This document shows, in pieces, positions 1,115 to 24,449 of a stretch of DNA of 33,408 nucleotides; position 1 is the stretch's first letter, and each line of letters begins with the position of its first letter. Source of the DNA: Natrialbaceae archaeon Tc-Br11_E2g14 (lineage in GTDB: Archaea; Halobacteriota; Halobacteria; Halobacteriales; Natrialbaceae). The translations under genes were made by a program, and so were the position numbers. The notes beneath the pieces are model-generated. The model saw only the letters and a list, made by a program, of their open reading frames with translations. It made no database searches and was not told the origin of the DNA. Location of the stretch: assembly GCA_001564275.1 (NCBI GenBank), contig LKND01000031.1, positions 1 through 33,408 on the forward strand, written 5' to 3'.

Positions 1115-1212
1115 GGCGTGTCTCTGACCGGTCGCTTTCGACATCCCGCCTGCCTGGCAGCCGCCCCTCGAGCCCGGTGGCGTCCAATTCGAGGATCCTC
1201 GTGGGTCACCTC

Positions 1213-1293
1213 ATACGGATTCGTGTCTTCGCTTACCGGTGAGTGCCAGTCCCGGTTCGGCACTCACCAGTAAACAGTGACACTAAACCGTAT
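1213..1293. repeat. Palindromic repeat family 1, copy A
   Basis: An 81-bp imperfect palindrome runs from ATACGG to CCGTAT. The arms are about 35 bp each with about 28 matching positions, around an 11-base centre. The inner stem is GGTGAGTGCC / GGCACTCACC. Read on the minus strand its first base is the A of the TGA stop of the universal stress gene, giving TGATACGG. The same length and end arrangement recur at 8670-8750. Confidence 0.85.
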
Positions 1294-2174
1294 CAGTCGG
1301 GGTACTGGGTCGCGCCTGTAGTCGCACCCGACCCCCTCGTCCGCACGGTCAGTACTGGGGCCGGCGCACGCCCGATGACTCGCTGTGAGACACTCCCGAC
1401 CACGAAGCGCTCGAGGGGTGACCGACTCTCGGTTCCCACGACGATGAGGTCGATATCGTGGTCTTCGGCGTACTCGAGCAGTTGCTCGTGAACGAGCCCG
1501 TGCTCGACAGACCGCTCGACCGCGAGCCCACGGGCGGTCGCTCGCTCGGCAACGGTCTCGGTCGCCTCGTGGCTGGCTGTCTCGAAGGCCTCGAGCACCA
1601 CATCCATTTGCGAGTGGACGTCGTCGACGACCGAAACGGCGTGGACGGTCGCACCGGTCGCCTCGGCCAGATCGAGCCCGTGAGCGACGGCCCCTTCGAC
1701 GCCGGGGCGTCCGTCCGTCGCGACGAGAATGTCCTCCATCGGGGTGACGGGAGTCGAAACCTGTCTGCTAACGGTGAGGACTGGGCAGGGAGCCTCGCGG
1801 ACGATGGCTCCCGCTACACTGCCCATGATCCACCGCCGAACGCCCGTTCGACCGTGGGTACCGACGACGATCACGTCAGCGTCGTGTTCGTCGGCATCCT
1901 CGAGGATGGCCGCTCTGGGGTCGCCCGCCAGTACCCTCGTCTGGACTGGCACGTTCCGTTCCTCACCGGTCGACCGTGCAGCTGCGAGCAGGCTATGGGC
2001 GCGTGATCGCTCCCCGGATTCGCTATCACCGCCCGACGCCGGTTGGTCTTCGACCACGGTGACGATGCGGAGGTCCGCTTCGAGAGTGGGTGCCAGTTCG
2101 AGTGCCTGTTCGACGGCCCTCGATGCCGTCTCGCTGCCGTCGGTCGCGACGAGCAGTTGGTCATACGGGGACAT
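1293..2174 (-). CDS. Tandem-domain universal stress protein
   Basis: Two UspA domains in one 293-residue cytosolic protein. Domain 1 (about residues 1-137) begins YDQLLVATDGS and ends GTHGRTGVRRWIMGSV..PCPVLTV, the intact G-x2-G-x9-G-S nucleotide-binding signature. Domain 2 (about 145-280) begins EDILVATDG and ends GTESRSPLERFVVGSV..APVLTV, where the second Gly of the signature is replaced, so ATP binding by this half is doubtful. Usp proteins bind ATP or act as stress-responsive chaperone-like factors; no specific partner can be inferred. An upstream ATG at 2183 (MIPMSPYD) is possible; the one at 2174 starts nearer the first beta strand and is preferred. The stop codon abuts palindromic repeat copy A. 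Divergent from nreA. Confidence 0.88.
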   Translation of the reverse strand: MSPYDQLLVATDGSETASRAVEQALELAPTLEADLRIVTVVEDQPASGGDSESGERSRAHSLLAAARSTGEERNVPVQTRVLAGDPRAAILEDADEHDADVIVVGTHGRTGVRRWIMGSVAGAIVREAPCPVLTVSRQVSTPVTPMEDILVATDGRPGVEGAVAHGLDLAEATGATVHAVSVVDDVHSQMDVVLEAFETASHEATETVAERATARGLAVERSVEHGLVHEQLLEYAEDHDIDLIVVGTESRSPLERFVVGSVSQRVIGRAPAPVLTVRTRGSGATTGATQYPD

Positions 2175-2280
2175 GGGGATCACACCACGTCGAGTGGCTT
2201 GAAACCGGCTGGCCAGTTTCGATGATTCTCACCCGAGAAACCCGGTGATTGATGACCGTGCCACTCACATTCACGGACGA

Positions 2281-3588
2281 ATGCGCCTCGACGAGTACAT
2301 CGAGGAGCTGGAACCCGACGAGGAGGCTCGTCGTCGCCAGCTCGCAAAGGAGAAATCCTACGCCATCACCGACCACCTCGAGGACTTCGAGCGAAACTTC
2401 GAGCAACGGCTCTCGGGTGACACGCTGGTCGGGTCGACGGCCCCCTCGATCTTCGTCGGTCGGTCGAACTACCCGGATATCCCCGTTGGCGTCCTCTCGC
2501 CCGTCGGTGGCGAGGACGAGGCCGAAGAGTACGTCACCGACGGCAACTGGTACCGGCAGGGCTACGGGATCGACGACGTCCTCCAGCGCCGAACCGGCCT
2601 CTTGAACTCCAACAAGCGCGCCAACGTGGATGCACCGGGGATCGCCAGTCGGCTCGCCCCCTCCGTCCACGACGTCTGGGACGGCTTCGTCGGCGTCCAA
2701 CGCGAGGTCGCCATCTCGGATCGGCCCGTGGATCTCGAGATCGGGCTCCAGGAGAAACCGGACCTGGGGCTGGACACGGGCACCGACGTCGCCACGCCAC
2801 GGGGGCCACGGGCGACGGCCAACTCGGCCGACCTGCGAGAGAACCCTCACGTGCCCCGCCCCGTGGAGAAGACCCTCGAGGACGACGACTGGCAGGCCCA
2901 GGGGGCGATGACCTACCTCTATCGACGAGGGTTCGACGTCTACGAGATCAACTCGATCCTCTCGGCGGGGGCCCTGGGTGAGGCTGCCCAGCGTCGCCTC
3001 GTCCCCACGCGGTGGTCGATCACGGCCGTCGACGACACCGTGGGACAGTACCTCCGCGGGCGGATCAGGAACGCCTCGAGCATCGACGAGGTGCAGGTCT
3101 GGGCGAACGAGTACATGGGCAACCGGTACTGGATCGTGCTCGCCCCTGGCAGCTGGGAGTACGAACTCGTCGAGATGAAGGCCCCGGGCAGCATCTGGAA
3201 CCCCGATCCAGGGGGCTCTCTCTGGATGGCCAGCGCGTCGGAGGGCTTCGAGGGTCGCTCGAGTTACGTCGAAGAGACCGCCGGGGCGTACTACGCCGCC
3301 CGGCTGGGCGTGCTCGAGCACCTCGAGTCGATCGGTCGCCAGGCGAAGTGTCTGGTCCTGCGCGAGGTGAGCGACGACTACTGGGCTCCCGTGGGCGTCT
3401 GGCAGGTTCGTGAGAGCGTCCGCAACGCGTTCGAGGGCGAGTGCGGGACGGCGGAGACGTTCCACGAGGCCGTGGGAACGATCGCCCAGCAGTTGCCGGT
3501 CTCACTCGCCCGACTCCAGCGAAAGTCCGAGCTGGCTGCGGGCTTGCAGTCGAACCTCGCGGCGTTCACTCGCCCGTCGAAACTGTAG
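2281..3588 (+). CDS. nreA: DNA repair protein NreA (PCNA-interacting)
   Basis: The 435-residue protein matches the archaeal Nre family throughout: MRLDEYIEELEP at the start, SIFVGRSNYPDIPVGVLSP near residues 55-80, and PTRWSITAVDDT and GSWEYELVEMKAPGS in the middle. In haloarchaea NreA is needed for resistance to DNA damage and binds PCNA. A C-terminal PIP-box candidate QSNLAAF (Q-x2-L-x2-F) lies within the last 13 residues and supports that role here. The catalytic activity of the family is not settled. The frame also allows a GTG start at 2245, but family members begin at MRLDEY, so the ATG at 2281 was chosen. It converges with the Asp-rich protein gene, with only 26 bp between stops. Confidence 0.93.
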   Translation: MRLDEYIEELEPDEEARRRQLAKEKSYAITDHLEDFERNFEQRLSGDTLVGSTAPSIFVGRSNYPDIPVGVLSPVGGEDEAEEYVTDGNWYRQGYGIDDVLQRRTGLLNSNKRANVDAPGIASRLAPSVHDVWDGFVGVQREVAISDRPVDLEIGLQEKPDLGLDTGTDVATPRGPRATANSADLRENPHVPRPVEKTLEDDDWQAQGAMTYLYRRGFDVYEINSILSAGALGEAAQRRLVPTRWSITAVDDTVGQYLRGRIRNASSIDEVQVWANEYMGNRYWIVLAPGSWEYELVEMKAPGSIWNPDPGGSLWMASASEGFEGRSSYVEETAGAYYAARLGVLEHLESIGRQAKCLVLREVSDDYWAPVGVWQVRESVRNAFEGECGTAETFHEAVGTIAQQLPVSLARLQRKSELAAGLQSNLAAFTRPSKL

Positions 3589-3614
3589 GCGTCGTCCTGC
3601 CTCCAGCGGTCGCC

Positions 3615-4481
3615 TTACTGTCTCGAGGTGTCGTCCTCGTCGCTCAACAATCCTTCCTCGTCATCGTCGTCATCGTCATCATCACCAGCCAGCCCGTCGT
3701 CGTCACCGAGGAGGCCGTCGTCGTCATCGTCGTGGTCCATCAGTCCGTCATCGTCGTCATCGTTTCCAATGAGGCCACTGTCATCATCACCAATCAGGCC
3801 GTCATCGTCGTCCCGATCCCTCTCCAGATCCGTCCCGCCGGTCACACTCCCATCGGCGTCCGGCGTTCGGGCTCCATCGCCTTCGTGTTCGGCAACTCGC
3901 CCACCGTGGTGTTGATCAGGGGTGTGGTCTCCGGTGCCGGTGGTTCGATCCTCGTCCACCGAACGTCCCTCGTCGCCCAGTGGGCTGTCGTCTTCATCAT
4001 CGTCACCCACCAGCCCGTCATCACCACCGATGATCCCGTCGTCGCCCATCATCCCGTCGTCGTCATCGTCACCGATGGTCCCGTCGTCGTCCGACACGCC
4101 ACCCTGTTCATCGAACCGCCCTGCATCGCGAGCTCCTTCCGCTCGAGCACCGGCATTGCTTCGGCGTCCTGGCTCACTCGTACCCATGGTACCGGTGTCT
4201 CCATCGACAGTTGCGCCTGTTTCGGTGCCCTCACCGAGCCGTTCGGCCTGGTGGAGGTGAACGGTGTCCTCGCCCTTGTCAGCGATATCGCTCTCCCTTA
4301 GCGTGATCGTCTCCTCACTCTGTGCACTCCATCCGAGGGCGGCTTTGATACTGTCAGTGAGGCCCGGATCCGGGTCGACGTAGGCGTGGTCATCGTCGAC
4401 GTCTGTCACCAATCCGATTTCCTCTCCGTTTGCATTGACGACCCGTTTCCCGACGTCTTCAGGAACGAATGTTGCGGACAT
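3615..4481 (-). CDS. Asp-rich repeat protein with N-terminal PRC-barrel-like domain
   Basis: Function unknown. Residues 1-75 form a small folded domain (VGKRVVNANGEEIGLVTDV, then DPDPGLTDSIKAALGW and DTVHLHQ) that resembles a PRC-barrel-like domain and is clearly paralogous to the 84-residue protein at 11690-11944. The rest is low complexity: a linker rich in Gly, Thr, Arg and Glu, then many copies of a degenerate unit G-[LIVM]-[LIVM]-G-D-D-D with Asp runs up to eight residues. There is no signal peptide or membrane segment, so it is probably cytosolic. The tail could bind divalent cations or be a disordered salt-adapted segment; both are inference. ATG at 4481 was chosen because the domain starts right after it; the longer frame to 4556 adds an unrelated basic stretch. 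Confidence 0.75.
   Translation of the reverse strand: MSATFVPEDVGKRVVNANGEEIGLVTDVDDDHAYVDPDPGLTDSIKAALGWSAQSEETITLRESDIADKGEDTVHLHQAERLGEGTETGATVDGDTGTMGTSEPGRRSNAGARAEGARDAGRFDEQGGVSDDDGTIGDDDDDGMMGDDGIIGGDDGLVGDDDEDDSPLGDEGRSVDEDRTTGTGDHTPDQHHGGRVAEHEGDGARTPDADGSVTGGTDLERDRDDDDGLIGDDDSGLIGNDDDDDGLMDHDDDDDGLLGDDDGLAGDDDDDDDDEEGLLSDEDDTSRQ
3640..4095. repeat. Low-complexity Asp-codon repeat tract
   Basis: On the plus strand this tract is dominated by degenerate GTC/ATC triplets (gtcgtcatcgtcgtc patterns), encoding the Asp-rich repeats of the minus-strand gene. The triplet periodicity keeps all frames open on the plus strand, which explains the Ser-rich and Val/Ile-rich spurious frames there. 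Such tracts are prone to slippage and assembly error, so the exact repeat number is uncertain. Confidence 0.7.
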
Positions 4482-4851
4482 GACGAGTAACCCTAGGTGA
4501 TCCATCGTCATGCACCTGCGCCCTGCATTCGCGCGTTCGAGGTCCGACCCAGGCATCCGGTCCCAGACAACCTGAATTGCTTCTCCTGTCCCTGTGGCCG
4601 TGGCTACCCGTTTGTCCTCGGTTGCTGGGTATCATCTACAGGCGGTCGTGATAGAGCCGATCCTTGATGACTCGAGCGGTCCCAATCGCTTGCCCTTCAA
4701 ACGGGATATTGGTGGGGATATAACGGCTGTACGTGGACAGGGGAAGAGGGATGTGTGTTGACCAAACGATCACTAAATCCTGACATTCACAAAATCTTAG
4801 TCATATTTAAGGGAAAAAGTTTATATCCGATGGGTTAGCTACCCGATTGGT
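4482..4851. other. Divergent intergenic region
   Basis: About 370 bp between two divergent genes. The last 60 bases are clearly AT-rich compared with the rest of the window and hold the promoter of the beta-helix gene. No small gene with haloarchaeal codon use and no RNA gene was recognised. Confidence 0.5.
4820..4826 (+). promoter_or_regulatory. Putative TATA box of the beta-helix gene
   Basis: TTTATAT is centred about 29 bases before the ATG at 4852, in an AT-rich stretch. In haloarchaea this spacing puts transcription start at or within a few bases of the start codon, so a leaderless mRNA is expected. No Shine-Dalgarno-like sequence precedes the ATG, which agrees. Confidence 0.6.
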
Positions 4852-6483
4852 ATGGCACGCGAACAGTCACGACAGCATATCGATAGCTCCGGCGGACGGT
4901 CAGGCTCGGCTGACGGTCGGCTCAACCGACGCTCGTATCTCAAGCTCGCAGGCGCAGCAACGGCCGCTGCGGTCGCCGCGGCGACGGCTGCAGGAGCGAG
5001 CGATGGCGACTACGACGTGATCGAGGTCGATCCCGGTGAACGGCGCGTCATCCGCGTCGACTCGGGCGAGACCTTCGAAAACGCCGTCATCGACGTCAGT
5101 GCCGACGGGGCCTCGGCGATCATCACCGCGATGGGCACGAACTGGACCATCCGAAACGTCGGCTGGCGAGGCGTCTCGGCCGACGAAACGTTCATCGGCT
5201 GTGCGGACTCCGGCGGAAACACCTCTACCATCGAGAACGTCTACATGGGTGACGGCGCGGAGCCAGGCCACCGGAACGGGCTCGGCATCTGGCTGGGCCG
5301 CGACCACTCGGGACATCTCGACATCAATCGAGTCAATATCCAGATGATGGGTGACAACTCGTTTTACCTCTCTGCGCCCCACCATTACGGGGACAACGGG
5401 ACGGTCCACCTCCGGAACTGTTACTCCCGGAACTCCTGGGTCGCCCACTACCGCCTCGGGAACGGGACGCTCGAAAACTGCGTCGCCGTCAACGAGGCAA
5501 CCGACGTCGACGAGCGTCATGGCCGCGGCGTCTGGGCGTGGGACCCAGGCCCGGTCGAGGTCCGGGGCTGTCACTTCGCCATGAACGGGTACCACTACTC
5601 GTTCCGAAACGGCGGGAACGGGGAGGGGGCCAGCGAGATTAGCGTCACCGACACGGAGTGGGATACGGGCTTCAACGGAGGCTACTTTGACCCACACGGC
5701 CCCGTGAACTTCGAGGGCGGCAACGGGAACGATCCCGAGGATTTCTACCCCGAAGGCTGCCCAACCAGCCCAGAGGAAGCCGCCGGCGGCGAGGGCGCCA
5801 CGGGCGGTTCTCGGGAATACGACCACACGCTTCGTCTCGAGGGCGAAGCCGAGTACTATCTCGAGGTCGACGAGGAACTCGCCCCACGAAGCGGGTTCGA
5901 ACAGTATCTCGAGTACGGCGAGGCCTACGGCGAAGACTGGGCCGACTGGTGGGTGAGCACTTGGACCGAGTGGCGCTTCAACGGCGACGTCACGCGGCTC
6001 GATCTCGAGGACGTCAACGATCTCACCGTCTACTTCGACGGCGAGGAGATCGACCCGGACGATCTCGGCGAGAACAGCCCCTCGAACGAGGACGAGGGGG
6101 ATGACGAATCTGAGACCCAGATCCTCCGGATGGAGGGCGTCGGCGACTACGCCTTCGAGACTGACGGCACGGTCGAGCCCACCGACGAACTCGCGCAGTT
6201 CCTCACCGAGGGCGACAGCTACGGCGAGAACTGGGCGGACTGGTATCTCACTGGATCCTGGACCGAGTGGCGGGTCACCGGTGACTTCGAGCGGTTCGAG
6301 GTCGACGCCTACGATGGGACGGCTCCCGACCTCACGTTCTTCCTCGATGGCGAGGAAGTCACTCCCGAAGAACTGGGCGTCACGGGCCTCGGGGATGATT
6401 CGACGACCACCATTCGCATGGAGGGGGTCGGCGAATACTACTTCGAGACCGATGGCACCGTCGAGCCGGCGGTGTTCAGATAA
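4852..6483 (+). pseudogene. Tat-exported right-handed beta-helix protein, 5' part (disrupted by IS)
   Basis: The product begins with a twin-arginine signal (RRSYLKLAGAATAAA, residues 26-40) followed by an Ala-rich segment, so it is expected to be exported folded. Residues about 55-320 show short beta strands with GNG and N-rich turns (TIRNVGW, GTVHLRNCYSRNSW, GTLENCVAVNE) typical of right-handed parallel beta-helix proteins such as polysaccharide-active or surface proteins. From about residue 325 there are modules of about 95 residues sharing L-R-[LM]-E-G, G-E-[ND]-W-A-D-W, WTEW and a DGEE..P.EL end: one at about 325-410, one at about 423-515 and the start of a third. The third stops at residue 540, where an IS6-type element adds VFR and a stop. 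The remaining modules continue in frame at 7160. It may still make a shortened protein. Confidence 0.8.
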
Positions 6484-6484
6484 G
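6472..6484 (+). repeat. IS left terminal inverted repeat
   Basis: GTGTTCAGATAAG, identical to the reverse complement of 7147-7159. It starts exactly at a codon boundary of the host gene and supplies the in-frame TAA that ends the 5' fragment. Confidence 0.88.
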
Positions 6485-6519
6485 AATGAAAAGTGAGGCG
6501 GTTTGTTTTTTGAGTGTCT

Positions 6520-7155
6520 ATGGCAAAAAACGACCGCCTCAATGGCTGTTTGGACGAGATCGAGTTAGGTTTTGTGGAGCGAGAAGCGACACCGCGTTTT
6601 TTGATGAAGCTCGGTATTCAACTCCATATGGCTGGGTTATCACTTTCGAATACCGTCTCGGTTCTTGAAATATTTGGTGTCAAACGTGCTCGGTCTACCG
6701 TTCACAACTGGGTTCACAAGGCTGATCTACAGCCCAAATCTGATCAGAACCCGGATCACGTTGCGGTCGATGAGACCGTGATCCAACTCAATGATGAGTA
6801 GTATTGGCTGTACGCGGCTGTCGATCCCAAGACAAACGAATTACTCCATACAAAGCTTGAGCCGACCAGAACAAACGTTCTCGCCCACGCGTTCTTTGCT
6901 GAACTCCGCGAGAAACACGACGTTGAAAACGCCGTCTTCCTCGTCGATGGAGCCACCCCGCTGAAAGACGCTTGTCGTCGTCACGGCCTCGAGTTCAGAT
7001 ACGAAAAACATGGAAATCGGAACAGTGTCGAACGTGTCTTTCGAGAGATAAAACGACGAACTAACAGTTTCTCAAACTATTTCAGCAACGCCAAAGCAGA
7101 CACCGCCGACAATTGGCTTCGATCTTTCGCCTTTGCATGGAATCAACTTATCTGA
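6520..7155 (+). pseudogene. IS6-family transposase with internal amber codon
   Basis: The full frame would be 211 residues: an N-terminal helical DNA-binding part with STVHNWVHKADL, then a DDE catalytic core with Asp in AVDETVIQL, Asp in FLVDGATPL and Glu in SVERVFREIKRR, all present. Codon 94 (6799-6801) is TAG between QLNDE and YWLYAAVDP. Related transposases have a residue such as Gln at this place, so a single CAG to TAG change is the simplest explanation. The rest of the frame is intact, which implies a recent mutation or a sequencing error. The 93-residue product would lack most of the catalytic core, so the copy should be inactive by itself. The ATG at 6520 was chosen; an in-frame GTG lies two codons upstream. 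Confidence 0.85.
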
Positions 7156-7159
7156 ACAC
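7147..7159 (-). repeat. IS right terminal inverted repeat
   Basis: Reverse complement of the left end, 13 of 13 bases. It overlaps the transposase stop codon at 7153-7155. Confidence 0.88.
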
Positions 7160-7658
7160 TACCGTCGAGCCCAACGAGGATCTCGCACGATTCCTCGAGC
7201 AGGGCGACAGCTACGGCGAGAACTGGGCGGACTGGTATCTCACCGGTTCGTGGACCGAGTGGGAGGTGACCGGCGAGTTCACCACCTTCGAGGTGTCCGC
7301 ACACGATGGGACCGAACCGGACCTCACGTTCTACCGTGACGGCGAGGCGGTCGACCCCGCGGAACTCGGCGTCAGCGGTCTCGACGATCCCGGCGAGCGC
7401 GTGTTGCGTCTCGAGGGGACGGCCGATTACGCCTTCGAGACCGACGGGACGGTCGAACCAGATCCCGAGATCGCACAGTGGGTCACCAAGGGTGAAGGGT
7501 ACGGTGACGACTGGGCTGACTGGTGGCTCAGCGACTCCTGGACCCAGTGGCACGTCAGCGGGCGCTTTACGGCGTTCGATCTCGAGGCCGTCGACGGTGA
7601 CGGACCGGATGTGACGGTTTTCCTCGATGGCGAGGAGGTCGACCCCGCCGAGCTGTAA
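7160..7658 (+). pseudogene. Beta-helix protein, 3' part (C-terminal modules stranded behind IS)
   Basis: Directly after the right IS end the frame reads TVEPNEDLARFLEQGD, in register with the module of the 5' fragment, and continues through YGENWADWYLTGSWTEW to a further complete module ending DGEEVDPAEL and a TAA at 7656-7658. Two modules remain, about 166 residues. At DNA level the stretch encoding GDSYGENWADWYLTGSWTEW is nearly identical to the copy near 6210-6270, so homologous recombination between modules is plausible. No start codon or promoter of its own is apparent after the IS, so expression is doubtful. Confidence 0.82.
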
Positions 7659-7693
7659 CCGGGCCGCTACTTGCATCCTCGCTTTCCTTTCCG

Positions 7694-7846
7694 CTCGAGC
7701 GGATGGGTGAACGCCTCGAGCGGATGGGTGAACGCCTCGAGCGGATGGGTGAACGCCTCGAGCAGATGGGTGAACGCCTCGAGCAGATGGGTGAACGCCC
7801 CGAGCAGATGGGTGAACGCCTCGAGCAGACGGGTGAACGCCTCGAG
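7694..7846. repeat. 21-bp tandem repeat, seven units plus a 6-base partial
   Basis: Unit boundaries fall at 7694, 7715, 7736, 7757, 7778, 7799, 7820 and 7841. Each unit is CTCGAGC[AG]G followed by ATGGGTGAACGC, with few changes: CGG in units 1-3, CAG in units 4-7, CCCGAG at the start of unit 6 and ACG for ATG in unit 7. Since 21 is a multiple of three, several frames on both strands stay open. It lies between the end of the beta-helix gene and a crotonase gene. Confidence 0.95.
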
Positions 7847-7876
7847 TTACGGACAACCCAGACTATTTGTCGGTGA
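7703..7876 (+). CDS. Possible 57-residue heptad-repeat peptide
   Basis: One frame of the 21-bp repeat encodes repeated M-G-E-R-L-E-[RQ] heptads, a pattern compatible with an amphipathic coiled coil, followed by LRTTQTICR and TGA at 7874-7876. The stop overlaps the crotonase ATG as TGATG, an arrangement often used for translational coupling. Against it, any 21-bp repeat gives open frames, there is no clear promoter, and the tail does not look conserved. It may only be minisatellite DNA. Reported as a possibility. Confidence 0.2.
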   Translation: MGERLERMGERLERMGERLEQMGERLEQMGERPEQMGERLEQTGERLELRTTQTICR

Positions 7877-8670
7877 TGGCCGATGAACGACCCATGCAAA
7901 CCGAATCGGACGACGGCGTCTACCGAATTACGTTCGATCGACCGGGCGTGTTGAACGCCTTCTCGACTGAGACGGCCGAAACGTTCGCCGAAACGATCGA
8001 GCACGTTTCGGCGAACAGCCGCGACTATCACGCCGTCGTGCTCACGGGGAACGGCCCGGCGTTCAGTGCTGGTGGAGACATCGAGGCGATGGCCGACCGC
8101 GAGGAGCGGCCACAGGACGCCTTCGATCGCATCACGGAAACCTTTGGGCGCGTCGTCGAGGCCATGCTCGAGTGCCCGCTCCCGATCGTCGCGAAGGTGA
8201 ACGGCGACGCGGTAGGGGCGGGACTCGCCATCGTCGGCCTCTCGGACTTCGCCTTCGCCGCCGAGGACGCCACCTTCTCGTGTGCGTTCGTCCGCGTCGG
8301 CCTCATCCCCGACACCGGCGGCACGTTCCTCTTGCCTCGACTCGTCGGGCTGCGAACGGCGAAGGACCTCGCGTTCACCGGACGCTTTTTCGGCGCCGAG
8401 GAAGCCGTCGAGATCGATCTGGTAAACGAGGCCGCTCCGGCCGACGAACTCGACGAGCGGGTCGCTGAGACCGTCGACCGCCTCGAGCGTCGACCAACCG
8501 AAACGATCGGGCTGATGAAACGCGCGATGCACGAAAACCTCGGGCGCCACTGGGGCGAGGCTCTCGAGTACGAGAATCTCCTGCAGGTGCAAGCCTACAC
8601 CTCGGATGCTCACGAGGAGGGAGTCTCCGCGTTCCTCGAGGGACGAGAACCGAGGTTCAACGAGGACTGA
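7876..8670 (+). CDS. Enoyl-CoA hydratase/isomerase superfamily protein, PaaG-like
   Basis: A crotonase-fold acyl-CoA enzyme of 264 residues. The oxyanion-hole segments are present (FSAGGDIEAM and GDAVGAGLAIVG). The two catalytic Glu residues of true hydratases are replaced by Ala and Phe by alignment from memory, while the segment LIPDTGGTFLLPRLVG closely follows that of PaaG, whose catalytic Asp corresponds to Asp146 here. PaaG isomerises ring-1,2-epoxyphenylacetyl-CoA to an oxepin and also has delta3-delta2-enoyl-CoA isomerase activity, so an isomerase role is more likely than hydration. No other phenylacetate or beta-oxidation gene lies in the window. An ATG at 7894 (MQTESDDG) fits usual family length slightly better and is a real alternative start. 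The stop is followed at once by palindromic repeat copy B. Confidence 0.88.
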   Translation: MADERPMQTESDDGVYRITFDRPGVLNAFSTETAETFAETIEHVSANSRDYHAVVLTGNGPAFSAGGDIEAMADREERPQDAFDRITETFGRVVEAMLECPLPIVAKVNGDAVGAGLAIVGLSDFAFAAEDATFSCAFVRVGLIPDTGGTFLLPRLVGLRTAKDLAFTGRFFGAEEAVEIDLVNEAAPADELDERVAETVDRLERRPTETIGLMKRAMHENLGRHWGEALEYENLLQVQAYTSDAHEEGVSAFLEGREPRFNED

Positions 8671-8750
8671 TACGGTTTACTGTAGTCTCTTACCGGTGAT
8701 TGCCGACCCGGTATGGGCAATCACCGGTAAACAGTTACAGCAATCCGTAT
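8670..8750. repeat. Palindromic repeat family 1, copy B
   Basis: 81-bp imperfect palindrome from ATACGG to CCGTAT with inner stem TTACCGGTGATTGCC / GGCAATCACCGGTAA (15 of 15 complementary) and a less perfect outer stem. Its first base is the A of the crotonase TGA (TGATACGG), the same junction as copy A has with the stress protein gene. Same length as copy A, and the best-preserved of the four copies. Confidence 0.9.
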
Positions 8751-8943
8751 GAGAGGGAGTATCGTCGAGTTCACACTTTTGTCTGAAGAACCGCGGCCCA
8801 GCCCAGAAGACCCGGTTTCGAGACCGCCGGTTGGCGACGAGAATTCCTCTCGGCGGCTCAGTCTGAGCTACGGACCGCCGTTCACGGCCACACATCGGCC
8901 GTCGGCGATGAAACCGAGTCCACCACAATCCAGCCCCGCTCGA

Positions 8944-9342
8944 TCAATCCGCCAGTGCCCCGCCACTCGAGGTGTCGTTCGTGAGAGCCAGTTCGATCCC
9001 GGCGTCGGCGTCCATCGAGATGCGGACGTCTGCCACCCGGCGACCGTAGACCGTCGTGTGCTTGCCCGACTGACAGAGGCGGAGCTGTTCGTCGAGGAGG
9101 GAGGCCGCCGAAAGCATCTCGAGCTTTCGGTAGGTGGTCGAGAGCGGGACGTCACAGTGCTCGGAGAGTTCCGAGGCCGACATGAGTTCGTCGGCATCGG
9201 TGAGGGCCTCGAGAATGATTCGACAGTCCGCGTCGTTGAGTGCATCCAGAACGGCCTCGACGTCGTCCTCCTGAGAGAGGGTGATTTCGTCAGGAGTTCC
9301 CGTTTGTCCGAATTTGTTGCCGACCTGCGATGAGTAGCTCAT
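8944..9342 (-). CDS. Winged helix-turn-helix transcriptional regulator
   Basis: A 132-residue protein with a central ArsR/TrmB-like winged HTH: DCRIILEAL, LMSASELSEHCDVPLSTTYR (HTH), KLEMLSAASLLDEQ, then a wing strand pair (GKHTTVYGRRVADVRIS). The acidic N-terminal 25 residues and the C-terminal 15 residues look disordered. No sensor domain or metal-binding cysteines are apparent, so the signal is unknown. The ATG at 9342 is preferred to far-upstream starts that would add about 60 residues of unrelated composition. It is a single gene; the nearest minus-strand gene upstream (9580-9759) has its own promoter. Confidence 0.85.
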   Translation of the reverse strand: MSYSSQVGNKFGQTGTPDEITLSQEDDVEAVLDALNDADCRIILEALTDADELMSASELSEHCDVPLSTTYRKLEMLSAASLLDEQLRLCQSGKHTTVYGRRVADVRISMDADAGIELALTNDTSSGGALAD

Positions 9343-9397
9343 ATCTGGAGGTATGCGTGAGATGCCAACCAGCGTTGACCACCGATAGCGTGGGTGG

Positions 9398-9405
9398 TTT
9401 ATAAA
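9398..9405 (-). promoter_or_regulatory. Putative TATA box, HTH regulator gene
   Basis: TTTATAAA, a perfect palindrome, lies about 56-63 bases upstream of the regulator ATG at 9342. Transcription on the minus strand would start near 9375 and give a leader of roughly 30 nt. Because the box is palindromic it could in principle also fire rightward, but no plus-strand gene follows. Confidence 0.5.
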
Positions 9406-9579
9406 CGAACACCGATCGGATGCTCGAGCGAGTGTCAACAGGTAGCCTGATTGGCCAGCCGTGGCGCTATGGACGGAAACCGGATACTGGTGTTCCAGCG
9501 AGCGAGTCACGTTGGAGGACCGTACCCCGATCACGCGCCGCTATCGGCGATCAGCGACGTGTCACGACAGCAACCCCGC

Positions 9580-9759
9580 TCAGGAATCGCTGGCGGCCTC
9601 GGCTTCGAAGTCTGTCTTGGCCTCGAAGTCGGTCTCACTCACGGGGGAGCCACAGACCGCACAGCCGTTCTCGACGAGGGCCTCGCGCATGGCCTCGTTG
9701 ACCGAGATGGACTGACCACATTCCGAACAGACGAATGTGTAGTCCTCGCTGCTACTCAT
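9580..9759 (-). CDS. Small zinc-ribbon protein (59 residues)
   Basis: The translation MSSSEDYTFVCSECGQS.. has two CxxC pairs, CSEC and CAVC, about 20 residues apart, then an acidic tail (ETDFEAKTDFEAEAASDS). This is one of the small haloarchaeal zinc-ribbon families. The spacing and the -A-[ML]-R-[ED]-A-...-G-C- pattern between the pairs resemble the second small protein at 11345-11554, so the two look related. Such proteins are often regulators or partners, but nothing fixes the function here. Start choice is supported by a TATA box 28 bases upstream. It is too short for common ORF cut-offs and easily missed. Confidence 0.85.
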   Translation of the reverse strand: MSSSEDYTFVCSECGQSISVNEAMREALVENGCAVCGSPVSETDFEAKTDFEAEAASDS

Positions 9760-9783
9760 TGGTGCAAATTGACGCGGCCGTCG

Positions 9784-9790
9784 TTATAAG
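9784..9790 (-). promoter_or_regulatory. Putative TATA box of the small zinc-ribbon gene
   Basis: CTTATAA on the minus strand, centred 28 bases before the ATG at 9759, predicting a leaderless transcript. Confidence 0.6.
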
Positions 9791-9869
9791 TACCCCACAC
9801 TCGTTCCGGAGACGTGAGAATACCTCACCAGCCCGGCCGATGACGGGGCTACAGTACCAATTGAAACGA

Positions 9870-9950
9870 GTTACACACCCTCACAGCGAGTCGGCTCAGA
9901 ACCGATTTGGCACCGGTTCTGAGCCACGGTATCGTGAGGGTGTGTGCAAT
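9870..9950. repeat. Palindromic repeat family 2, copy 1
   Basis: Long imperfect palindrome with outer arms ACACACCCTCAC / GTGAGGGTGTGT and inner arms GGCTCAGAACCG / CGGTTCTGAGCC around a short centre. Both stems are perfectly complementary over 12 bases. It lies between the divergent zinc-ribbon and HTH genes. Related copies are at 16343 and 24352. Confidence 0.88.
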
Positions 9951-10024
9951 GACGTTCAGTGGCTACTATAATCGCAACCGACCCGCTCAAGGGCCATCGG
10001 CTCAAATACCTCGAGTGGACCCAC

Positions 10025-10672
10025 ATGGCATCGGGAATCAGGGCGACGGTGCGAATCGATGACGCGGACGCCTGTCCGATCGCGACATTTGCCGCCGAAA
10101 CCGGGACACGTATCGATCAGGTATCGACTAGCGTCGCCGCGGGAACCGCCAACGCAACCACGGAGTTTCTAGCGGCCACCGACACCCCGAGTGAGGATGA
10201 AATCGAGGGCCCAATCTTCTCCTACGGCGAACTCAACCTCTATCGTCGCGAGCACGACGGGGAGGCCAGTTGTCCCTGTGCCTGTCTCGGCGAGTTCGGG
10301 TGTCCCGTCCACCGCTACGTGATCGAGGACGGGGCGATCACGCTCGTCTTTCACGCCGCCGAGTTCGAGCAGCTACAGGAGATCATGGCGACCTTTCGAG
10401 ATCGATATCCGGGCGTGGACGTCCAGCAACTCCTGCATCCGCCCCTCGAGGGTGACCACGACCAACGCGTGTTCGTCAATCGAGGAAAACTCACCGACAG
10501 GCAACACGAGGTACTCAAGGACGCCTACGAGGCGGGTTACTTCGAGCGTCCACGCGAAGCGAACGCGACCGAACTCGCGGCGGAACTGGGGATCAGCCAG
10601 TCGACGTTTACCGAACACCTGGTGGCTGCACAGCGGAAGCTGTTCGCAGACGTGTTGGCCGACGATTCCTGA
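10025..10672 (+). CDS. Bacterio-opsin-activator-type HTH-10 transcriptional regulator
   Basis: A 215-residue haloarchaeal regulator. Residues 1-150 form the family's beta-rich N-terminal region (ATVRIDDADACPIATFAAETG, later ITLVFHAAEFEQLQEIM). Residues about 155-215 are the HTH-10 domain: LTDRQHEVLKDAYEAGYFE, PREANATELAAELGISQSTFTEHL. Between them sits CPCACLGEFGCPVHRY, four Cys and a His within 15 residues, a possible metal or thiol-redox site; I recall similar Cys clusters in relatives. The frame opens with GTG at 9959, but family members start just before the first strand, so ATG at 10025 was chosen. Target genes are unknown. Confidence 0.87.
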   Translation: MASGIRATVRIDDADACPIATFAAETGTRIDQVSTSVAAGTANATTEFLAATDTPSEDEIEGPIFSYGELNLYRREHDGEASCPCACLGEFGCPVHRYVIEDGAITLVFHAAEFEQLQEIMATFRDRYPGVDVQQLLHPPLEGDHDQRVFVNRGKLTDRQHEVLKDAYEAGYFERPREANATELAAELGISQSTFTEHLVAAQRKLFADVLADDS

Positions 10673-10749
10673 TCACCGAGTGCCCCGTGTGGTGTGCTCG
10701 GAGAGCCGAAAGGGGTTAATGGTCGGGGAGCAGTATCTCTCATACGACG

Positions 10750-11211
10750 ATGCCATTAGCCGAGGAAACCGACATGTCGGCGGCAGAAATCGATTCGTTT
10801 TTGCGCCGCCACGAGACCGGCGTGCTGGCGCTGGCGGCGGCTGACGAGCCCTACGCGATCCCCATCTCCTACGGGTACGATGGCGACGATGGTACGTTCT
10901 ACATGCGAATCGTCTCGACACCGGATAGTGAAAAGCGGGACTTTCTCGCGTCCAGTCCCGCCATCCGACTGGTCGTCTACGAGGAGGCCGACGACGGCGA
11001 AACTTATTGGAGCGTCGTGGCAACCGGCGATCTCGAACAGATCGATCCTTCGGATCTCGACGTCGAGGAGATCGAACAGTACGGGGAGACCCGCCGGCCG
11101 CTGTTCGAGATCTGGGGAACGTCGAAAGCGGACCTCCGTATCCAACTCTATCGGTTCAAACCGGACGAAATCAGTGGTCGCCGGACGGACGTCGACCGGA
11201 CCGCTGAGTGA
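10750..11211 (+). CDS. Pyridoxamine 5'-phosphate oxidase-family flavin-binding protein
   Basis: A 153-residue split-beta-barrel protein of the PPOX/flavin-nucleotide-binding class. Features are the N-terminal helix (SAAEIDSFLRRHETGVLALAAADEPYAIPISYGYD), a strand FYMRIV, then KRDFLASSPAIRLVVYEE and WSVVATGDLEQI. Relatives bind FMN or F420; small haloarchaeal versions are of unknown substrate. It follows the HTH-10 gene on the same strand by 77 bp and could be co-transcribed, but a separate promoter is equally possible. The start is the first ATG of the frame. Confidence 0.85.
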   Translation: MPLAEETDMSAAEIDSFLRRHETGVLALAAADEPYAIPISYGYDGDDGTFYMRIVSTPDSEKRDFLASSPAIRLVVYEEADDGETYWSVVATGDLEQIDPSDLDVEEIEQYGETRRPLFEIWGTSKADLRIQLYRFKPDEISGRRTDVDRTAE

Positions 11212-11344
11212 GCGGAATGGGTGTCGCCTTCCCGTGATCAACGCACCGGAACGGTGATCACCGGAACGTGGTGACGAGTTCCGCGCTGAAGCCTCCGCGA
11301 TCGACACCGCAAAGATGCCTACGGATTTGCGAGCGCCACGACAT

Positions 11345-11554
11345 TCACGAGCGGCGCTCCTCGTCGAAGGACCGCACGGACCTCGAATCCGTCCCACCGG
11401 GGTCGTCACTGGTGTCGGCCCAGAGACCGCAGTACGGACAGCCGTGCGTCCGCACCGCGTCACGAAGGGGCGCAGGGAAGGTACCGTGGCAATCGGGGCA
11501 GATGAGTTGCTGGGTCGGCATTGGTGGATCGCTCCGTACGTCGGATACTGTCAT
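11345..11554 (-). CDS. Small double-CxxC zinc-ribbon protein
   Basis: A 69-residue protein with CPDC and CPYC pairs separated by about 18 residues (HGTFPAPLRDAVRTHG between), then a Ser/Asp/Arg-rich tail. It resembles the zinc ribbon at 9580-9759. Two ATG codons are possible, 11554 (MTVSDVRSD) and 11521 (MPTQQLICP). A TATA-like TTCTAAAG on the minus strand about 26 bases before 11554 favours the longer form as a leaderless message. Function unknown. Confidence 0.72.
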   Translation of the reverse strand: MTVSDVRSDPPMPTQQLICPDCHGTFPAPLRDAVRTHGCPYCGLWADTSDDPGGTDSRSVRSFDEERRS

Positions 11555-11614
11555 GGGCCCCCATGGGTGGAGACCCCCTTTAGAACGGGGTGTTTTTAGG
11601 TGTCACGGGATCTG

Positions 11615-11689
11615 CCGTATCGTTTCACTGATGATTGCCTCTACCGAGGACAATCACCGGCAACCGACGACGGTAACCCACAGCAGTCG
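11615..11689. repeat. Palindromic repeat family 1, copy D (degenerate)
   Basis: Centre GATTGCC-tctaccgagga-CAATCACCGG matches the inner stem of copies A-C, and CCGTAT at 11615-11620 resembles the family end motif, though inverted relative to copies A and B. On the minus strand the element begins directly after the TAA stop of the PRC-like gene at 11690. The outer arms are poorly conserved, so the limits are approximate. Confidence 0.6.
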
Positions 11690-11944
11690 TTATCGGTTGG
11701 ACTCGAGGTCGCCTGAAAGGTGGACTTTGTCGTCGCCGATTTGATCGATGGCCCCCTCCTGGAGCGGATAGGTATCCTCGCTCGTGTCGTCCCAGCCCAA
11801 TTTGGCTCTGATCGTGTCGGTCAATCCAGGGTCGGGTTCGACGTGAGCGGTACCGTGTTGCATTGCGGTGATCACGCCGATCGATTCGCCGTTGGCGTTG
11901 ACGACGGTCTTGCCGATGTCGTCGTCGGAGAGTTCGTGTCGCAT
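11690..11944 (-). CDS. PRC-barrel-like domain protein (84 residues)
   Basis: Stand-alone version of the domain found at the N-terminus of the Asp-rich protein (3615-4481). Shared landmarks are IGKTVVNANGESIGVIT, DPGLTDTIRAKLGW and DDKVHLSGD near the C-terminus. PRC-barrel-like domains occur in RNA-processing and electron-transport proteins as small adaptor modules; the role here is unknown. The ATG at 11944 matches the start of the domain, while the longer frame to 12067 adds unrelated sequence. Downstream of its stop lies palindromic copy D. Confidence 0.83.
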   Translation of the reverse strand: MRHELSDDDIGKTVVNANGESIGVITAMQHGTAHVEPDPGLTDTIRAKLGWDDTSEDTYPLQEGAIDQIGDDKVHLSGDLESNR

Positions 11945-12073
11945 TCCAACTAGGCGGTCTACGATCGGACCATTGAGCGTGGTGCCTGCCGTTGCAGGCA
12001 CCCGCTCATCGGGACCAGTGGGGTGATCACGTACGGGTGCAGTGATCCCCGGCAAGAGGCGGTACAACCCCGA

Positions 12074-15002: not shown

Positions 15003-16337
15003 ATGACCTCTCAAAAGGTGTCCGCTTCAGATGAAGGGAGCACGGTACACGGATCGGTTGTCATTCCGGCGGTTTCTGTACCGAGCACTGATATTTGTCT
15101 TCGTTCGCTTGCCCCAACCGGGGTTCACACCGTGGTTGTCTCTGAAGATTCGAAAGCGAAATCGTTTCATTCGAAATACTGCGATGAGGCCGTACTGGTC
15201 CCTGACCCGACAACAGATCTCGAGGGATATGCAAGGGCACTGCTCGCACTCGCCCGTCGCGACGACGTCCTCACTATCGTCCCAGTTCGCGAACCAGATA
15301 TTTTCGTTCTTTCAAAACATCGGGAGGCCTTCGCCGAGCACGTTGCAACCCCATGGCCGACTCTCGAAACGCTGGGACGCGTTCACGATCGAGTCCTTTT
15401 AACGGAGGCTGCAGCAGCCGCTGGCGTTCCGGCCCCCAGTACACGCCCGCTCAGCGAGGTTGAAACAGTCACTGAACCGTCCGTCGTCAAATCCCGCTAC
15501 AACCTCCTTGTCGATGAGTACGTCGACACAGTTCCGCCGGGCCACGTGGTACAGAACAACACAATCGAACACGTACAACCCTGTACAGTGCCACCGGCAG
15601 AGCGGCTGCAGGAGGCATTCAACCACGACCCCATCTTTCAGGAGTTCGTGCCGATCGACGAAGAGTACATGATTGGGGCACTCTACGACCATGGCGAACC
15701 GCTGGCGATGGTCCAACACAAACAGATACGGGGTGAATCATACACTGGTGGCGGTGGTGTCTATCGAGAGTCCATCTACGATGAGACACTCGAGAACGAT
15801 GCACTGGCGCTACTCGACGAACTCGAGTGGCACGGACTCGCCTGCATCGAGTACATGCGACACCCCAAAACGGGCGAATTTTACTTGACCGAAATCAACC
15901 CCAGAATGTGGACCTCACTCTCGGCCAACGTCCAAATGGGTGCGGACTTCCCGCGCCACTACTGGCAACTAGGGACTGATCGCTCAGCGGACATCGATGC
16001 AGAGTACGATCGAGGTGTCGGATGCCATTACCTCAAAGGTGAGTTGATGTACGTATTGAGTCTTCTCCGTGATGACTCGTCACTCATCGACCGTCCTTCA
16101 CTTCCGCAAACGATTCTCGAGATCGTTGGCTCATGCTATAGACACTCGAATTTTGATGTGTGCAGCCGTGACGACCCACAACCATTTATCCAAGATGTGT
16201 TGGTGGAACTGAGTGGGCTCGCTCCTGACACCGCCACAGTTCGTAAACTCGAGCGCTACACCAATCGAACAGACCCACCAGTGCATTGGCGCGAAGCAAC
16301 GGATGAGATCGCTACGAAGGAGCGGGTGAGGCACTGA
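15003..16337 (+). CDS. ATP-grasp family carboxylate-amine ligase
   Basis: A 444-residue protein with an N-terminal pre-ATP-grasp Rossmann-like part (VVIPAVSVPSTDICLRSLAP, VVVSEDSKAKSFHSKYCDEAV), then the ATP-grasp fold. Seen are the nucleotide-binding Lys in SVVKSRYN, the FQEFVPIDEEYMIGALYD strand, a Gly-rich loop SYTGGGGVYRES, and metal-binding Glu and Asn in YLTEINPRMWTS. The family joins a carboxylate to an amine through an acyl-phosphate; relatives are often near cell-surface polysaccharide genes, but no such genes are here. Codon use is slightly less GC-biased than its neighbours and the upstream region is AT-rich, which may indicate later acquisition. Palindromic repeat family 2 follows its stop. 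Confidence 0.85.
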   Translation: MTSQKVSASDEGSTVHGSVVIPAVSVPSTDICLRSLAPTGVHTVVVSEDSKAKSFHSKYCDEAVLVPDPTTDLEGYARALLALARRDDVLTIVPVREPDIFVLSKHREAFAEHVATPWPTLETLGRVHDRVLLTEAAAAAGVPAPSTRPLSEVETVTEPSVVKSRYNLLVDEYVDTVPPGHVVQNNTIEHVQPCTVPPAERLQEAFNHDPIFQEFVPIDEEYMIGALYDHGEPLAMVQHKQIRGESYTGGGGVYRESIYDETLENDALALLDELEWHGLACIEYMRHPKTGEFYLTEINPRMWTSLSANVQMGADFPRHYWQLGTDRSADIDAEYDRGVGCHYLKGELMYVLSLLRDDSSLIDRPSLPQTILEIVGSCYRHSNFDVCSRDDPQPFIQDVLVELSGLAPDTATVRKLERYTNRTDPPVHWREATDEIATKERVRH

Positions 16338-16342
16338 AAGTC

Positions 16343-16425
16343 GTTGCACACACCCTCACGATACCATTGCTCAAAGCTGGTGACGAATCGGGTCTGAGCC
16401 ATCTCACTGTGACGACGTGAAACTC
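16343..16425. repeat. Palindromic repeat family 2, copy 2 (right arm degenerate)
   Basis: GTTGCACACACCCTCACGAT on the left is the same outer arm as copy 1, there seen as its complement. The inner arm and right half (GGTCTGAGCC..TCTCACTGTGACGACGTGAAAC) are recognisable but diverged. It sits between the convergent ATP-grasp and membrane-protein genes, 5 bp after the first stop. Confidence 0.75.
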
Positions 16426-16452
16426 GTTTCGGTAGCTACCCTCGCTCGATCT

Positions 16453-17175
16453 TCAAGTTGTCTCGACTGGCTCGTCATCCTGACGACGGCCCACAACCGC
16501 GTAGCCAAGGCCACCGCCAATGGCCCCGAACAGGAACGGATAGATCAACCCGGCAGTGAGGATGGCATCGAACGGGACGGGCCGAATAATTCCCGCATCG
16601 ACGGCCACGGTCGTGAGCACGAGCGCGACGACGGTACAGGAGAGGTAGCCAACGAGCACCATCGCTCCCGTGGTCGCCCCGTCGACCCACTCCTCGAGTC
16701 CATGGCGGTGTCGGTAGGTGGTGAGTGCGCCGGCACCGACCAGCACCACCGGCGGCAATACGAAGAGCAGCCACTCGAGGCCGTCGCCGTCGAGGAGGAC
16801 GTTCTGACGCGCCGGCAGAAACGCGAACACGCCGCCATCGGGGATGTCCGTAGCCACGAAGTGGGCGTTGAAGTACGTCCAGGCAACGACCTCGAGGGTC
16901 ATCGGCTGGCCGGTGGTCGACTCGAGGATCTCCATACGGATGTCGTCGGCCGTGGAGGGACGAGTGACGAGATACGTGAGGAGGTACCCGATCAGCCAGG
17001 CGGCGCTGCCGAACCCGGTCGCCTCGAGGAGGGGGCGGTAGGAGTAGTCGGCGTCCGTGACCACTGTGTTGTCGGGATCCGTTTCCCTGTCGGCTCGCAC
17101 GCCGCTTGCGCTCCCCGTTCCGGATCCAGCCTCCACCGATCCATCATCGTCTGGCGCGTCCGGGGCCGCCGGCAT
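16453..17175 (-). CDS. Haloarchaeal polytopic membrane protein of unknown function
   Basis: A 240-residue protein with a disordered acidic N-terminus (about residues 1-48) and then four clear hydrophobic segments: SAAWLIGYLLTYLVT, WLLFVLPPVVLVGAGAL, AMVLVGYLSCTVVALVLTTV and AILTAGLIYPFLFGAIGGGL. A longer extracytoplasmic loop lies between segments one and two. It looks like one of the conserved haloarchaeal DUF families of inner-membrane proteins; no catalytic motif is seen. ATG at 17175 was chosen since the frame upstream enters sequence with no membrane-protein or haloarchaeal character. Divergent from rfcL, with 150 bp between starts. Confidence 0.75.
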   Translation of the reverse strand: MPAAPDAPDDDGSVEAGSGTGSASGVRADRETDPDNTVVTDADYSYRPLLEATGFGSAAWLIGYLLTYLVTRPSTADDIRMEILESTTGQPMTLEVVAWTYFNAHFVATDIPDGGVFAFLPARQNVLLDGDGLEWLLFVLPPVVLVGAGALTTYRHRHGLEEWVDGATTGAMVLVGYLSCTVVALVLTTVAVDAGIIRPVPFDAILTAGLIYPFLFGAIGGGLGYAVVGRRQDDEPVETT

Positions 17176-24225: not shown

Positions 24226-24263
24226 CGCTCATCCGGTGGCCGACCCGGTTGCCGAAACAACGG

Positions 24264-24342
24264 ATAGGGCTACTGCCGTCTTTTCCCGGTGATTGCCCGC
24301 ACGGGGCCGGCAATCACCAGTGAGTAGTCGCCCCAGACCGTT
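24264..24342. repeat. Palindromic repeat family 1, copy C
   Basis: Inner stem CCGGTGATTGCC / GGCAATCACCAG matches copy B. Outer parts (ATAGGGCTACTGCC..GTCGCCCCAGACCG) are recognisable with substitutions and one missing base. It lies in the 224-bp gap between the convergent thioredoxin and glyA genes, directly followed by a family 2 element. Confidence 0.78.
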
Positions 24343-24351
24343 CGAAAGGAG

Positions 24352-24430
24352 GTGCACATGTCACAGCGAGACGGTGCAGAACCGACGTTCTCCGGCTCTG
24401 AGTCACGGTGTCGTGAGGGTGTGTGCACTG
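24352..24430. repeat. Palindromic repeat family 2, copy 3
   Basis: Right arm GGCTCTGAGTCACGGTGTCG followed by TGAGGGTGTGTGCACTGAC is close to copy 1; the left arm TGTCACAGCGAGACGGTGCAG is more diverged, with AGCGAG in the same place as copy 1. It ends about 20 bp before the glyA stop and is placed back to back with family 1 copy C. Confidence 0.78.
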
Positions 24431-24449
24431 ACTGCCGGTGGCTCCTCTA

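Follow-up and report, generated by a model that had tools for sequence, protein, structure and literature searches.

Haloarchaeal MITEs, e.g. HqIRS of Haloquadratum walsbyi, lack a transposase gene, harbor terminal inverted repeats, duplicate their target, occur in many copies, and are presumed to be helped in trans (PMC3119063). From the same species, the short mobile repeats SMR-A and SMR-B have been described, which are 80-110 bp long, show prominent inverted repeats, and are nested in other mobile repeats; they have no known transposase, their ends match no known transposon, and no mode of mobilisation is known for them (PMC3119063). The palindrome family considered here resembles the two groups in these traits, its ends having found no counterpart within the transposase families searched; the short mobile repeats are the closest described class. 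A literature search found no paper on this palindrome family or on stop-codon landing in haloarchaea. The palindromes very probably constitute a new MITE-like family of short, gene-less palindromic DNA transposons with an unusual pattern of landing on stop codons. They are denoted as MITE-like and not as MITEs, since no parent sharing their ends was found among the transposase families searched (PF01609, PF13340, PF13586).

Copies within the window

The window is a stretch of 33,408 nucleotides from Natrialbaceae archaeon Tc-Br11_E2g14 (contig LKND01000031.1). It harbors the following copies and associated genes:

1211..1295, minus strand: G-type copy, consisting of a TCA repeat (1211-1213), a 79-bp palindrome (1214-1292), and a TCA repeat (1293-1295); strong match, 96 bits
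1293..2183, minus strand: universal stress protein gene (PF00582), ending on the repeat of the 1211 copy
7876..8670, plus strand: enoyl-CoA hydratase gene (PF00378), ending on the repeat of the 8668 copy
8668..8752, plus strand: T-type copy, consisting of a TGA repeat (8668-8670), a palindrome (8671-8749), and a TGA repeat (8750-8752); strong match, 104 bits
11603..11685, minus strand: degenerate relic of the palindrome family; 37 bits, E 1.8e-6 within the window
24261..24345, plus strand: older diverged copy; 72 bits

A first-pass annotation of the sequence had described an 81-bp palindrome family, with four copies, placed at gene stop codons. The family is real, with two strong copies, one older copy, and one relic in the window and 81 places genome-wide; the unit itself measures 79 bp, the additional A and T belonging to the flanking TNA repeats. 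The annotation had also placed the TGA of a gene at the junction of both young copies, and both do touch a stop codon. The stop of the plus-strand enoyl-CoA hydratase gene is the left-hand TGA repeat (8668-8670), while the gene at the 1211 copy lies on the minus strand and its stop (TGA) is the right-hand TCA repeat (1293-1295). The relic had been thought to begin directly after a TAA; it ends approximately 4 bp from a TAA, the stop of an ORF on the minus strand, and lacks a target repeat, hence the junction is not shared with the young copies. The older copy is indeed located downstream of the thioredoxin stop, starting 38 bp instead of 39 bp past it, and its target repeat is unrecognisable now. 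An Rfam search of the window gave no match.

Unit, copy number, and distribution

The unit is a near-complete palindrome of 79-80 bp with terminal inverted repeats (TACGG...CCGTA) and arms pairing over most of its length, located between 3-bp direct repeats of the form TNA (TGA or TCA). At 79 bp it is gene-less and too short to code. A search for the core pattern, GGTGANTGCC-loop-GGCANTCACC, gave 35 matches in the own genome and none in a reversed control. A covariance model built from 26 copies yielded 148 strand matches that merged into 81 places, so that the own genome harbors at least 81 copies, many of them near-identical. Two main young subfamilies, with the stem GGTGATTGCC or the stem GGTGAGTGCC, each comprise near-identical copies, and at least one minor subfamily, with a stem starting GGCGATTGC, is represented by three near-identical copies. 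The 3.6-Mb genome G196 shows 321 end matches. More subfamilies, with the ends TACGGAAAGTTGTAG and TACGGACGGTTGTAG, are seen on G196:C1 (L278, L364, and many others), where TCA or TGA precedes all listed ends. One candidate for a long element, L380 (2.1 kb between its ends), was rejected, as it looks like a different IS inserted within a copy. The solitary ends L033, L051-L054, L076, L081, L246, L264, L269, and L314 were set aside as truncated or decayed copies or chance matches.

With a strict pattern for the family's end, the family was found in 28 of 293 sampled Halobacteriales genomes, distributed over 13 of 87 genera and three families of the order. Among the named genomes searched, Natronosalvus hydrolyticus shows repeated matches to the core pattern, on the basis of which the window genome is assigned to, or near to, Natronosalvus. 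Relatives are found on plasmid records of Halomicrobium, Natrinema, Natrialba, Halomontanus, Haloarcula, Halococcus, and Salinirubellus. The phage records searched gave no match; in viral contigs there are three pattern matches.

Insertion with target duplication

Of the 81 own copies, 57 lie between exactly identical 3-bp repeats, which almost always read TGA or TCA; in five genomes belonging to other genera, exact 3-bp repeats border 62 of the 69 copies. Where both sides read TSA, the middle base is the same in approximately 118 copies and different in two. The copies C12:9321 and C33:7903 are identical in their interior and orientation, yet one is located between TGA repeats and the other between TCA repeats; the repeat therefore stems from the target sequence and not from the element. 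Empty sites are found in another halobacterial genus: the flanks of copies in the Halomicrobium-type genome G196 match the related genome G132, which carries a single TGA or TCA at these positions, in two cases with 0 mismatches over 63 bases. This shows that the element inserts and duplicates its target. Insertion takes place at an extended palindrome with the consensus CGWC-TSA-GWCG, of which the central 3 bp are duplicated. Three own copies are nested in a second family of palindromic repeats, all at the same position of it. The palindromes are mobile DNA and very probably not a 3'-end RNA element. Of the explanations offered by the first-pass annotation, a MITE with a TGA-type target preference is borne out by the target duplications, the empty sites, the nested insertions, and the many near-identical copies.

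At G000:C124:4978-5143 (L153), a tandem pair shares one TGA repeat, from which it follows that the element's own ends are acceptable as targets.

A short palindromic hairpin of intergenic location and high copy number could also be of REP/REPIN type or derive from IS200/IS605, with a Y1 transposase mobilising it in single-stranded form in a PATE-like manner. This origin is contradicted by the exact 3-bp target duplications and the empty sites and is regarded as extremely improbable. Y1/HUH elements are not known to make any target duplication. PATEs likewise show none (PMC3119063).

The search for an autonomous element with TACGG ends gave no result among 60 PF01609 loci, 30 from the genus and 30 from four carrier genomes, the ends of which were checked by pattern with mismatches allowed. 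The IS5-type families PF13340 and PF13586 had no match in five carrier genomes.

Hairpin, covariation, and loop inversion

The two young window copies form very stable folds (z -6.9 to -8.3), and, as for any palindrome, the hairpins of young copies are strong on either strand. Across 26 representatives drawn from different subfamilies, each pair in the variable stretch of the inner stem takes two to four Watson-Crick types, meaning that the palindrome was kept while its sequence changed. Both features would be expected from a selected 3'-end element, i.e. an RNA hairpin that terminates transcription or shields the 3' ends of mRNAs and is kept for following stop codons. This reading does not account for the fate of the diverged copies: 28 of them in the own genome show 124 broken pairs, 28 G-U pairs, 17 compensated pairs, and 12 double changes without compensation. 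Old copies decay without compensation, which gives no indication of a host RNA function. Neither was a T-run or terminator-like site found around the 8668 copy, the one copy scanned.

With respect to the arms, loops are found in either orientation, 14 against 8 for the T-type and 11 against 8 for the G-type. At three loci common to G196 and G132, with flanks approximately 98-99% identical, the loop is inverted in place at two, while the arms are unchanged; one inversion is exact and the other is accompanied by an extra base change. Homogenised arms and inverted spacers are recognised signatures of template switching in DNA (PMC8604942, PMC8794818). Alternatively, the loop inversions could result from gene conversion, with a copy of opposite loop orientation as the donor. 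Given either process, covariation is a poor argument for RNA function here. The compensatory changes that the first-pass annotation had proposed to look for do exist, as the inner stem covaries between subfamilies, and a DNA-level explanation is available for them.

Landing on stop codons

According to a codon-usage gene caller, the repeat TGA is the exact predicted stop codon in 34 of 81 own copies and in 37 of 69 copies from five genomes of other genera; as this caller relied on a home-made codon model, the figures that depend on it are approximate. Annotated CDSs that end exactly on the repeat are present in Halomicrobium mukohataei, Natronosalvus amylolyticus, Natrialba magadii, and Natrinema thermotolerans, and one Halomontanus CDS end coincides with a repeat placed by sequence. 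After insertion into a TGA stop, the duplicated TGA on the gene side still serves as a stop and the reading frame is unharmed. Gene bodies are almost free of copies. With the flanks joined, a single insertion within a gene was seen among the intact-repeat copies of the own genome, and it lies near the gene's 3' end.

Relative to non-coding sites with the same 5-mer, 25 of 56 intact-repeat copies of the own genome are located at stop codons, where 9.6 are expected. No enrichment is seen 1-60 bp downstream of stops (6 seen vs 9.5 expected), and copies are depleted shortly before starts (4 seen vs 14.5 expected). The background for the own-genome statistics consisted of 385 kb of other contig stretches. 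The outcome that the first-pass annotation had named as its refutation, copies spread without regard to gene ends and lacking covariation, did not arise, as copies are enriched exactly at stop codons. This excess would also suit the selected 3'-end element introduced above. Such an element would, however, not predict the lack of enrichment directly past the stops, and 47 of the 81 own copies lie off stop codons. Insertions at stops favor a particular flanking sequence on both sides, which fits insertion and is not required by function. Taken with the uncompensated loss of pairing and the missing terminator-like site at the 8668 copy, these observations make the 3'-end or termination RNA element, the other alternative of the first-pass annotation, very unlikely.

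Within the preferred reading as a MITE-like transposon, the target consensus CGWC-TSA-GWCG resembles the ends of haloarchaeal genes (often GAC TGA G). For the own genome the expected share of stop insertions is 11%, rising to 27-33% once sites are weighted by an extended target matrix that was trained on intergenic insertions only. The observed share is 45%, and target preference, taken first as the 5-mer and then as the extended matrix, was therefore rejected as the whole cause of the excess. In the other genomes the matrix-weighted expectation is 11-18%, and 67% (Halomicrobium type) and 49% are observed. A logistic model including seven flanking bases on each side gives an adjusted odds ratio at stops of 2.7 (95% bootstrap 1.6-4.7) for the own genome and of 4.8 (2.9-11.8) for the other genomes, the backgrounds of the latter being small (75 stop sites) and drawn from insertion flanks. 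The association with stops is in part due to the target sequence and the avoidance of genes and promoters, and in part unexplained.

A stronger form of the MITE-like explanation holds that the transposase or a partner is guided to translation stops or gene ends, as a safe-site strategy. The odds ratios that remain after adjustment speak for such true targeting, as do the confinement of the enrichment to the exact stop, sparing the 1-60 bp downstream, and the recurrence of the pattern in several genera. Selection against insertions into regulatory DNA would, however, produce a deviation of the same sign, and the background of available sites is imperfect (small sample, gene caller, intergenic constraints); true targeting is thus considered possible but rather doubtful.

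Other repeats in the window

The second palindromic repeat family, TTGAAACGAGTTACACACC...GTGTGTGCA...GGCTACTATA, is present in the window at 9839-9964, 16329-16454, and 24389-24444, with one of these copies adjoining the 24261 copy. Closely related repeats of this type number in the dozens in G132, a Halomicrobium-type genome, and the family is a landing site for the TACGG...CCGTA element. An IS6-like transposase gene with an in-frame TAG (6484-7155) is located between the repeats of a gene (4852-7658) for a predicted secreted protein. Inspection by eye revealed no target duplication common to the two flanks of the transposase gene, which points to insertion combined with deletion or recombination between the internal repeats of the secreted-protein gene. 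Directly upstream of the enoyl-CoA hydratase gene, approximately seven copies of a 21-bp tandem repeat (CTCGAGCGGATGGGTGAACGC) occupy 7694-7846. A minus-strand ORF at 3615-4511 harbors long aspartate-rich repeat runs, and its adjoining part resembles the ORF at 11690-12067.

Proposed mechanism and implications

The element inserts at CGWC-TSA-GWCG and duplicates the central 3 bp, yielding TGA...TGA or TCA...TCA flanks. A transposase, probably of the DDE type and supplied in trans, would move it by cutting TNA with a stagger of 3 bp. The enrichment at stops would stem from the target sequence, from the elimination of insertions that hit genes or promoters, and from an additional component, perhaps true targeting. 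The long hairpin would be kept, and its loop inverted, by DNA template switching or recombination and not by selection on a host RNA. Two results count against this explanation, i.e. that no end-sharing autonomous element was found and that the stop excess goes beyond the target sequence (odds ratios 2.7 and 4.8). As a whole, the interpretation of the first-pass annotation is supported in part.

The family explains a class of palindromes behind haloarchaeal stop codons that can be mistaken for terminators or RNA motifs. It further illustrates that covariation alone misleads for mobile palindromes, where DNA-level processes can produce both changes on the two arms of a stem and inverted loops. 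Moreover, it provides a testable example of a transposon landing on stop codons without breaking them; if true targeting holds, the rebuilding of the stop by the 3-bp TGA duplication would represent a built-in safe-site strategy that rests on the stop codon itself.

Comparison with known systems

The IS5 family, IS1031-type insertion sequences, and PIF/Harbinger elements make 3-bp TNA-like duplications. T and A are outermost in these duplications, as in the present family. The family differs from IS5-type elements in that PF13340 and PF13586 were not matched in the five carriers and that no ends are in common with the PF01609 transposases examined. HqIRS MITEs share their ends and target length with a known transposon (PMC3119063), whereas the transposase families searched yielded none for the present family, the unit of which moreover measures just 79-80 bp and is palindromic almost throughout. 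SMRs are reported to be without target duplication, in contrast to the 3-bp TNA duplication found here, and SMR-A favors IS605-type elements and PATEs, whereas the present family is enriched at gene ends (PMC3119063). REP/REPIN sequences are likewise short intergenic palindromes of high copy number, from which the present family is distinguished by its target duplication.
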